From NCBI GenBank assembly GCA_029577135.1, contig JARQPW010000006.1:1-64000 (forward strand): DNA of 64,000 nucleotides, read 5' to 3'. The DNA comes from Acidimicrobiales bacterium (GTDB lineage Bacteria > Actinomycetota > Acidimicrobiia > Acidimicrobiales > MedAcidi-G1). Positions 2,132 to 6,203 of the stretch are shown piece after piece. The number at the start of each line of letters is the position of its first letter. Positions within the stretch are counted from its first letter, which is position 1. Position numbers and translations under genes: made by a program. The notes under the pieces are model-generated. The model saw nothing but the letters and a program-made list of their open reading frames with translations. It was not told the origin of the DNA and made no database searches.

Positions 2132-2188
2132 TCGGCGAGCGTCTAGGGCGGGCGAGATAAGACCGGGAAATCCGCGATCGGGGGAGTG

Positions 2189-4900
2189 ATGACCAACAGC
2201 ATGGACTGGCAGGCAAGCCGTCGAGTTCGCGCGGTGTGCCTTGTAGCGCTGTCAGGGTTCTGGTTGTGGGCAATAGCGAACCCCGCGGCTGCAGTGGCAC
2301 CCAGCGCCCCGGCGGCGCCGACAGTCACTGCGGACAACGCGTCGGTCGACGTAACCTGGAAAACGGTTACGTCCACCCCGATCGTCACGGCCTATACGTT
2401 GGCGACGCTCAACGAGGACGGCACCGTGCTCATCTCCACGATCAGCGTCGATGCCGCGAGTGGCGATGATGCATCGGTCACCGTCACCGGACTCACCAAC
2501 GGCACCGCCTACACCTTCAAGGTGCTGGCCAGGAACGTCGACGGCAACTCCGACTATTCGGAGATCTCCACCGCGGCCACTCCGCGAACCACGCCCGACG
2601 CGCCGGGCATTCCAACTCTCGTGGCTGCCGACGAAAAAATCACTGCCACCTGGACTGCTCCTGCCAGCAACAACGGCGCCGAGATCACCGGATACACGGC
2701 AACGGCCTCGACGGCCGGATCGGCCGCTGGCACGTGTTCGACCACGTCGAACACGGACCTCGACTGCGCCATCTCGAGCCTCACGAATGGCACCTCCTAT
2801 GAGGTCACCGTCACGGCAGCCAACTCTGCAGGCAACAGCAACGCATCGACCGGCGCAGCCGCTACCCCGTCAACCACGCCCGGAGCTCCGACCGGCGTCG
2901 CCGGTACCGCCGGCGCAGGACAGGTCACGGTGACGTGGTCCGCGCCGACCGAGACCGGCGGGTCGGACATCACGCAGTACACGGCGACAGCGACACCCGA
3001 CGGAGCGTTCTGCATATCGACCTCTGCCCTCACCTGCGACATCACGGGCCTCACCAACGGCACCGAGTACACCTTCCGGGCGAAGGCCACCAATGCCAAC
3101 GGTGCAGGATCCAACTCGAGTGCCAGTGCGGGCGTGACCCCGGTGACTACGCCCGGAACGCCGACCGCACTGGCGGGGACGGCCGCCGACGCGTCGGCTG
3201 CGCTGACCTGGACCGCCCCGACGGACACCGGCGGTTCGGCGATCACCGACTACACCGTCGAGTCGTCGTCCGACTCGTCCACATGGACGACGTTCGCCGA
3301 CGGCACCTCGACAACCGCCTCGGCGACGGTGACGGGCCTGACGAACGGCACGGCCTACACCTTCCGGGTGACCGCCGTGAACGCCCAGGGCTCCGGTACT
3401 GCGACGTCCGCCTCCTCGGCGGTCACGCCGGTCACCACACCCGGCACGCCGACCTCGTTGTCCGGCACCGCCGACGACGCCTCGGTCGTATTGAACTGGA
3501 CCGCACCGACGGTCACCGGCGGCACGGCGATCACCGACTACACGGTCGAGTCGTCGTCCGACTCGGGTACGACCTGGACGGCGTTCACCCATGACGTTTC
3601 CACGACGGCCTCGTTGCGGGTCACCGGCCTCACAAACGGCACGGCCTATACCTTCCGGGTCAGCGCCGTGAATGCCGTCGGCACCGGCACCGCCTCGGCG
3701 ACGGCCTCCGCCACCCCGGTCACCACGCCGACGGCGGCGACGGCGGTGGCCGGTACGGCCGGCAACGCCCAGGTCGCACTTACCTGGACCGCTCCGACGG
3801 ACAACGGCGGTTCGGCGATCACCGACTACACCGTCGAGTCGTCGTCCGACTCCGGCACCACCTGGACGACGTTCGCCGACGGAACGTCGACGACGGCCTC
3901 GGCCACGGTCACGGGCCTGACCAACGGCACCAGTTACACGTTCCGGGTCAGCCCGGTCAACGCCGTCGGCACCGGCACGGCGTCGACGGCCAGCGCCGCG
4001 GTAATCCCGGTCACCACGCCCGGTGCGCCGACCGCCGTTGCGGCAAGCGCCGACGGCACGACCGCGACCGTCACCTGGACGGCACCCACGGACACCGGCG
4101 GCAGCGCCATCACGGGCTACAAGGTCGAGCAGACCGTCGACGACGGCGCCACATGGGCGACCGCTACCGCCGATACCGCCTCCACGGCTGTCACCGCCAC
4201 GTACAGCGACCTCACCTCGGGCGCCAGCTACTCCTTCCGGGTCTCGGCCATCAACGCCGTCGGCACCGGAACGGCTTCGACGGCCAGCGTCGCCGTCCAG
4301 ACCGGCCCGCCGGCCGCCGCGGTCAACGCCTGGCTGGCGACCGACGACGCCCCGAACTTCCTCGCTATCCTCGCCTTCGCAGGCCAGGAAGCGGCCGACC
4401 AGGTCGCTGCCGCCGCCGCCGAGGTCGAGGTCTGGGTCGACAGCGCCGACGGGCGCCGTTTCCTGGGCCTGCCGACCAAGGCCGAGGAAGAGGTCGCAAG
4501 CGCCTGGGCCGACAGCGCCGATGGGCGCCGTTTCCTGGGCCTGCCGACCAAGGCCGAGGAAGAGGCCGCAACCCTCGTATGGCTGGCCACGGACGAGGCC
4601 ACCAACTGGCTGGGCGAGGCCCCGACCACGACCGACGAGTGGCTCGCCACGGACAACGCGACGGCCTTCCTCGAGGCGATCGCGGCAGCGGAGGCAGCAG
4701 AGGCGGCAGCAGCGGCAGCAGAGGCGGCAGCCTTCTTCGAGGCGATCGCGGCAGCGGAGGCAGCAGCGGCGGCAGAGGCGGCAGCGGTCGCAGCCTTCCT
4801 CGAGGCAATCGCGGCAGCGGAGGCGGCAGAGGCGGCAGCGGCCACCACCGCCTGGTTGGCGACCGACGAGGCCACCAACTTCCTGGCCTCGCTGGGCTGA
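2189..4900 (+). CDS. Secreted protein with seven fibronectin type III domains and a Trp-motif/Ala-rich tail
   Basis: The protein has about 903 residues. An Arg-containing N-terminus and a hydrophobic stretch ending near AIANPAAA form a likely Sec signal peptide. Seven tandem FN3-like domains of 90-100 residues follow (about residues 40-710). Each ends in a TxLTNGTxYTFRV-type strand, and neighbours are joined by short TP-rich hinges. The last 190 residues differ: W-x-A/D-T/S-x motifs at residues 715, 749, 773, 798, 818 and 889, two almost identical DSADGRRFLGLPTKAEEE blocks, and a long Ala/Glu stretch. Candidate starts are GTG 2186, ATG 2189 and ATG 2201. I chose 2189 because a GGGGGAG lies just upstream, although its spacing is short. 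An adhesive or scaffold role outside the cell is inferred from the FN3 domains only. Confidence 0.85.
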   Translation: MTNSMDWQASRRVRAVCLVALSGFWLWAIANPAAAVAPSAPAAPTVTADNASVDVTWKTVTSTPIVTAYTLATLNEDGTVLISTISVDAASGDDASVTVTGLTNGTAYTFKVLARNVDGNSDYSEISTAATPRTTPDAPGIPTLVAADEKITATWTAPASNNGAEITGYTATASTAGSAAGTCSTTSNTDLDCAISSLTNGTSYEVTVTAANSAGNSNASTGAAATPSTTPGAPTGVAGTAGAGQVTVTWSAPTETGGSDITQYTATATPDGAFCISTSALTCDITGLTNGTEYTFRAKATNANGAGSNSSASAGVTPVTTPGTPTALAGTAADASAALTWTAPTDTGGSAITDYTVESSSDSSTWTTFADGTSTTASATVTGLTNGTAYTFRVTAVNAQGSGTATSASSAVTPVTTPGTPTSLSGTADDASVVLNWTAPTVTGGTAITDYTVESSSDSGTTWTAFTHDVSTTASLRVTGLTNGTAYTFRVSAVNAVGTGTASATASATPVTTPTAATAVAGTAGNAQVALTWTAPTDNGGSAITDYTVESSSDSGTTWTTFADGTSTTASATVTGLTNGTSYTFRVSPVNAVGTGTASTASAAVIPVTTPGAPTAVAASADGTTATVTWTAPTDTGGSAITGYKVEQTVDDGATWATATADTASTAVTATYSDLTSGASYSFRVSAINAVGTGTASTASVAVQTGPPAAAVNAWLATDDAPNFLAILAFAGQEAADQVAAAAAEVEVWVDSADGRRFLGLPTKAEEEVASAWADSADGRRFLGLPTKAEEEAATLVWLATDEATNWLGEAPTTTDEWLATDNATAFLEAIAAAEAAEAAAAAAEAAAFFEAIAAAEAAAAAEAAAVAAFLEAIAAAEAAEAAAATTAWLATDEATNFLASLG
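4331..4897 (+). repeat. Repeat-bearing C-terminal tail of the FN3 protein
   Basis: Two copies of a 72-base unit (from 4433 and from 4505) encode W-x-DSADGRRFLGLPTKAEEE. Four further WLATD motifs start at 4331, 4580, 4640 and 4853. Between about 4660 and 4850, three copies of a F-L/F-EAIAAAEAA block are built from GCAGCGGAGGC-like triplet runs. The section probably forms short helices ending in an aromatic cap. I do not recognise it as a known domain. Confidence 0.8.
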
Positions 4901-4925
4901 GCCGGACGGCCCGGCCGCCGGGCCC

Positions 4926-6203
4926 ATGACCGACCTGACGCCCGCGGGGGCGGCGGCGCTCGACGCCGTCGACCCGCTGGCCGGGTTCCGCGAAGCGTTC
5001 ATCCACGACGACGCCGACCCGGACCTCGTCTACCTCGACGGCAACTCACTCGGACGCCTCCCGATGGCCTCGGTTGCCCTAGCCGAGGACGTGCTGCGCC
5101 GCCAGTGGGGACAGCGCCTCATCCGCAGTTGGAACGAGGGCTGGTTCGAAGTCCCCCGGCTGATCGGCGACCGCATCGCCGAACTCGTTGGCGCCGGGCC
5201 GGGTGAGGTTGTCCTGGCCGACGCCACGTCCGTGGTCCTCTACAAGGCGGCGGTCGCCGCCCTGAAGGCCCGCCCGGGACGTACCCGGATCCTGACCGAC
5301 GACCTCAACTTCCCGTCGGACGTCCAGGTCCTACGGGCGGCCGCACAGGCCGCAGGACCCGACCACGAGGTCGTGATCCTGGAGTCCGACGGCCTGCACG
5401 GTCCCGTCGACGGACTGGCCGAGGCCCTCACCGGGCAGGAGGCCGCCGACGTGGCGCTGGTGTCCCTCAGCCACGTCGCCTACGGGTCGGGCTGGTGCTG
5501 GGACCTGGCGACGACGACCCGGACGGCCCACGAGGCCGGCGCCCTCGTGCTCTGGGACCTCTGCCACTCGGTCGGCGTCGTCCCGATCGACCTCGGCGCT
5601 GCCGACGTTGACCTGGCGGTCGGATGCACCTACAAGTACCTCAACGGCGGCCCCGGGTCACCGGCGTTCATCTACGTGAATGCCGATCGGAACGGACTCC
5701 GGAACCCGGTGCGCGGCTGGTACGGCTCCGACGACCCGATGGGCTTCGGCTTCGACGCCGGCCCCGCCGCCGGTGCCTCGCGCTTCCTGACGGGAACCCC
5801 GCCGATCCTGTCCACCGTGCTCGTCGAGCCCGGCGTGGACCTCATCCTGGAGGCCGGGATCGACCGCCTCCGGGCCAAGTCCGTGGCCCTGACCGAGCGG
5901 TTCATCGCCCTCGTGGACCTGCACCTGGCACCCCTCGGCTTCGAGGTCCGTTCGCCCCGCGCCCCCGCCCAGCGCGGCTCGCACGTCTCGTTGCGCCATG
6001 ACGCTGCCCAGGCCGTGAGCCAGGCCCTCGTCAACGAGGCCAAGGTGATCTCCGACTCCCGGCCGCCGGACCTCATCCGCTTCGGGTTCGCCCCGCTCTA
6101 CATCGGGTTCGCCGACGTCGACGAGGCCGTCCGGCGAATCGTGGAGGTCGTCGAGTCGGGCGGCATCGACCGTTGGCGGGACCTCCAGCCGGTGGTCCCG
6201 TAG
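4926..6203 (+). CDS. kynU: Kynureninase
   Basis: PLP enzyme of fold type I that cleaves L-kynurenine to anthranilate and alanine (EC 3.7.1.3). The 425-residue length fits the family. The N-terminal YLDGNSLG motif, the FPSD segment and the TYKYLNGGPGSP segment are typical; Lys237 in the last is the expected Schiff-base lysine. The ATG at 4926 gives the normal N-terminus; the frame stays open upstream through the FN3 gene, but that part is not kynureninase-like. It follows the FN3 gene by 25 bases. No tryptophan dioxygenase or kynurenine formamidase gene is nearby, so the rest of the pathway must lie elsewhere or be absent. Confidence 0.93.
   Translation: MTDLTPAGAAALDAVDPLAGFREAFIHDDADPDLVYLDGNSLGRLPMASVALAEDVLRRQWGQRLIRSWNEGWFEVPRLIGDRIAELVGAGPGEVVLADATSVVLYKAAVAALKARPGRTRILTDDLNFPSDVQVLRAAAQAAGPDHEVVILESDGLHGPVDGLAEALTGQEAADVALVSLSHVAYGSGWCWDLATTTRTAHEAGALVLWDLCHSVGVVPIDLGAADVDLAVGCTYKYLNGGPGSPAFIYVNADRNGLRNPVRGWYGSDDPMGFGFDAGPAAGASRFLTGTPPILSTVLVEPGVDLILEAGIDRLRAKSVALTERFIALVDLHLAPLGFEVRSPRAPAQRGSHVSLRHDAAQAVSQALVNEAKVISDSRPPDLIRFGFAPLYIGFADVDEAVRRIVEVVESGGIDRWRDLQPVVP

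Follow-up and report, generated by a model that had tools for sequence, protein, structure and literature searches.

The window, a stretch of 64,000 nucleotides from a genome assembled into 68 contigs, carries close to its start a gene on the forward strand that encodes an FN3 protein of 904 residues. Pfam fn3 (PF00041) matches this protein in seven stretches, above the family cut-off (E=9e-82, 269.8 bits), and the protein belongs to that family. At its N-terminus, a hydrophobic stretch at about residues 14-35 is followed by AxA, a putative signal peptide as judged by eye. The protein is probably secreted or exported, like other bacterial FN3 surface and secreted proteins with which it shares the FN3 domains after a signal-peptide-like start, and we infer that it resides at the cell surface. 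The host genus is one that we take to be marine Acidimicrobiia. The protein ends in a tail of repeats that is a genuine coding extension of the same reading frame, up to the TGA stop codon at 4898-4900. The features of the gene are the following:

2186-4900, forward strand: FN3 gene with a 904-aa product, comprising a signal-peptide-like start, seven FN3 domains and the C-terminal repeat tail (open reading frame and Pfam).
4304-4897, forward strand: tail, 198 aa, with a net charge of -28 and 74 Ala, all-helical by prediction.
4331-4363, forward strand: W unit 1, WLATDDAPNFL (pattern and unit profile).
4433-4504, forward strand: W unit 2, 24 aa, WVDSADGRRFLGLPTKAEEEVASA (pattern, unit profile and tandem repeat).
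4505-4579, forward strand: W unit 3, WADSADGRRFLGLPTKAEEEAATLV, near-identical to unit 2 (pattern, profile and tandem repeat; a CGT codon shared with unit 2).
4580-4612, forward strand: W unit 4, WLATDEATNWL (pattern and unit profile).
4640-4672, forward strand: W unit 5, WLATDNATAFL (pattern and unit profile).
4673-4852, forward strand: stretch rich in Ala and Glu, holding three EAIAAAE blocks and falling within a single long helix predicted for tail residues 117-185.
4853-4897, forward strand: W unit 6 and the C-terminus, WLATDEATNFLASLG, differing from two relatives by synonymous changes only.

A kynureninase-like gene, named from reading its sequence, occupies 4926-6203, 25 bp downstream of the FN3 gene. 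Upstream lies an open reading frame cut by the contig start (2-2131), with repeated TPNF/TPNL blocks and a weak similarity to CarboxypepD_reg; a search of 40 related genomes, among them those of the genus, gave no relative at E<=1e-10. On the reverse strand, opposite the FN3 gene and its tail, lies a 710-aa open frame (2870-5002) that probably results from codon usage at high G+C.

The tail is built on a W-x-x-[ST]-x5-[FW]-L unit, found in six copies at tail residues 10, 44, 68, 93, 113 and 184. When the pattern is written as W-x-x-[ST]-x5-[FWY]-L, the same six copies compare with 0.003 on average, and 1 at most, in 20,000 shuffles that keep the composition. The initial annotation described a mosaic of W motifs and FLGLP blocks: both are present, as WLATD motifs and FLGLP units, and they prove to be one repeat with a common W..[ST].....FL spacing, which makes the tail more uniform than first described. 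It placed the start at 4331, where the W of the first motif does lie, although the tail begins slightly earlier, at about 4304; its reading frame and end were correct. Its count of six Trp sites agrees with the motif copies, whereas the tail has seven Trp in all, the seventh standing in for the F of unit 4 (NWL). The modular unit that it suspected is borne out by the six copies of one repeat, as are its twin units and its three EAIAAAE(AA) blocks.

The twin units 2 and 3, starting at 4433 and 4505, are 24 residues apart and form a 72-bp tandem repeat with 95% matches. In both of them the second Arg codon is CGT in the window and CGG in two related species (G004 and G002). A private CGT common to both twins, where the two units are present in all these species, suggests that they homogenise each other through exchange or recombination, on the basis of this one site. 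The Ala/Glu-rich blocks start at about 4673, 4739 and 4802, at spacings of 22 and 21 residues; as DNA, the region is a 66-bp repeat in 2.8 copies with 88% matches. It differs between species, with one to three blocks, as counted in assemblies that are able to collapse repeats.

An AlphaFold2 model of the tail, computed from six sequences of which some are partial, consists of helices throughout (mean pLDDT 76) with a packing that carries no confidence (pTM 0.31). Residues 117-185 form one long predicted helix of about 69 residues; an isolated Ala-rich sequence is readily predicted as helical. In the model a helix tends to finish at the W, with a further short helix starting close to [ST]. No strongly hydrophobic membrane anchor was found in the tail, whose most hydrophobic 19-residue stretch is Ala-rich and contains Glu. 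Nor does the tail carry a signal of the LPXTG or PEP-CTERM type, defined by a motif, a hydrophobic helix and a basic end: a basic end is missing from this highly acidic segment.

The tail is retained in five of the six species of the genus in a search with the tail protein: the window's genome, G001, G002, G004 and G005. It was not found in G003, a 91% complete genome where an assembly gap could account for the absence. All five tails share the final ...FLASLG, which reads ...NFLASLG in the window. Six unit matches were counted in each of the window's genome, G004, G002 (with N bases in the tail) and G001 (with a gap and disturbed sequence), and five in G005, where the copy is cut by the contig start. 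In each of these genomes all units lie at one corresponding locus. Downstream of the tail gene lies the kynureninase-like gene in G002, G004 and G005; in G001 an amidohydrolase-like gene takes its place.

The tails of G004 and G002 share 82-89% identity with the window's, and the G005 fragment shares 76%. Over the tail core, pN and pS are 0.060 and 0.109 against G004 (pN/pS 0.55), 0.069 and 0.135 against G002 (0.51), and 0.157 and 0.379 against G005 (0.41, over 83 codons). Against G002, the FN3 part gives a pN of 0.028 and a pS of 0.248. Evolution is faster in the tail than in the FN3 part, and a ratio of about 0.5 compared to about 0.1 indicates that it is under weaker constraint. With small counts per segment, the last unit has no amino-acid change relative to G004 and G002, with 2 and 3 synonymous changes, and the segment holding the first W unit and its helix has pN > pS in both comparisons. 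A loosely constrained linker fits the weak constraint and the excess of pN around the first W unit as well.

Outside the genus, no relative of the tail emerged. A profile of the W-unit region devoid of the Ala blocks (alignment A3) gave convincing scores for genus members only, among 397 order-level and 396 phylum-level genomes. In a collection of 84,980 genomes the four matches correspond to the loci of G001, G002, G004 and G005, with none beyond the genus; a search of viral contigs and plasmids returned no tail relative either. Weak matches outside the genus were taken as chance; those inspected closely lie at an amidase-like and a HAD-like protein, and others at an acyl-CoA-dehydrogenase-like protein and at ribosomal protein S16 (identities by eye). 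Within the window's genome, a 19-column unit profile, built from the same genus sequences that it was run on, finds exactly six copies (E 1e-8 to 8e-7), the next match being at E = 0.7. A literature search, judged by title, yielded nothing relevant.

We considered the tail next to known families and folds. As the initial annotation had it, no known domain is recognised: nothing in Pfam or NCBIfam scores above cut-off, and a PDB sequence search gave no match. Its expectation of a helical tail is likewise matched by the model. The best Foldseek hit of that model in the PDB has E=2, and a pTM of 0.31 makes any fold match doubtful. The Ala-rich part resembles Ala-rich helical low-complexity segments such as that matched by DPC2, in having EAIAAAEAA blocks and a predicted long helix; the DPC2 match itself is weak, limited to this part (E=0.017, 15.9 bits for a cut-off of 70), and was rejected as explained by composition.

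Altogether, we tentatively favour, with a little less than even confidence, the reading of the tail as a lineage-specific, repeat-born helical segment that would serve for non-covalent self-association or attachment. In each unit a helix would end in W and be followed by a Ser/Thr helix cap and a short helix with F-L, and six copies would make a chain of helices. Between units 5 and 6 an expandable Ala/Glu-rich helix would have been inserted. The tail may have grown by tandem duplication, recombination keeping the twin units alike. The units' aromatic and leucine faces, along with the long Ala-rich helix, could then mediate tail-tail association, or non-covalent docking on an envelope component, and so hold the FN3 array outside. 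This reading is supported by the six units compared to the shuffles, the retention across the genus, pN < pS over the core, the unchanged last unit and the helical prediction, and also by the signal-peptide-like N-terminus, the FN3 domains and the lack of a strongly hydrophobic anchor. It is weakened by the low pTM, the few sequences, the weak constraint and a signal peptide called by eye. A bolder version, in which the array is a new helical module for self-assembly or envelope binding, born in one marine Acidimicrobiia genus and holding an FN3 adhesin on the cell, is conceivable and on the whole unlikely.

The main rival of association or docking is a repeat-born, nearly neutral C-terminal extension, where GC-rich duplications have produced a tolerated Ala-rich helical tail with no specific partner. 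We regard it as a serious possibility: it accommodates the difference in pN/pS between the tail and the FN3 part, the variable Ala blocks, the concerted twins and the failure to find the tail beyond one genus. However, in intact relatives none of the six unit signatures is lost and the C-terminal end is preserved, and the last unit shows no amino-acid change in two relatives in the face of 2-3 synonymous ones. It is improbable, and partly the same as self-association or docking, that the tail binds a genus-private partner instead of itself, be it a polysaccharide or a dedicated envelope protein; a conserved aromatic residue in every unit speaks for such binding and the genus restriction is compatible with it, but the gene neighbours vary, the kynureninase gene being absent in G001 and the upstream gene having no relative in the genus.

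Descent from a known short-repeat family, highly diverged, appears very improbable. ALF repeats (PF03752), which are short and Ala-rich, have a T-D...F-L stretch that resembles the tail with the spacing off by one; yet the ALF profile fails to match the tail even with the threshold relaxed to E=10, its sole match in the genome lying elsewhere at E=0.24. Type I dockerins also have two near-identical segments of about 24 residues, whereas D-x-D-x-D-G calcium loops of the EF-hand kind are absent from units 2 and 3 by eye, and the database and Foldseek searches point the same way. The least probable reading is the one put forward initially, a sorting or docking signal common to many exported proteins: despite a C-terminal position on a probably exported protein, and a tail that opens and closes with the same motif, the unit profile finds a single locus in each genus member and nothing emerged in the order- and phylum-level samples. 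With the motif on one protein only in the genomes searched, an outcome that the initial annotation itself named as a refutation, the idea of such a family fails; the tail is a private extension of that protein and no widespread sorting signal.

As it stands, the finding is modest and limited to one genus. The tail illustrates cleanly what a young repeat domain looks like: one unit in six copies keeps its position within the genus while an inserted Ala-rich helix expands and shrinks. If self-association or attachment is indeed its role, it would show how a private anchor can be gained by a protein with no recognised sorting motif of its own.

Elsewhere in this bacterial family, FN3 proteins carry quite different tails, which also argues against a shared sorting signal. 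Four of them, from three genera (L057, L058, L065 and L048), have a Thr/Pro-rich linker before a short conserved C-terminus, GGIPLPPYYLG, GGIPPTPTYVG or RIPPTPLYVC. Ends of the GGIPLPPYYLG type seem a better candidate for a shared terminal motif than the window's tail.
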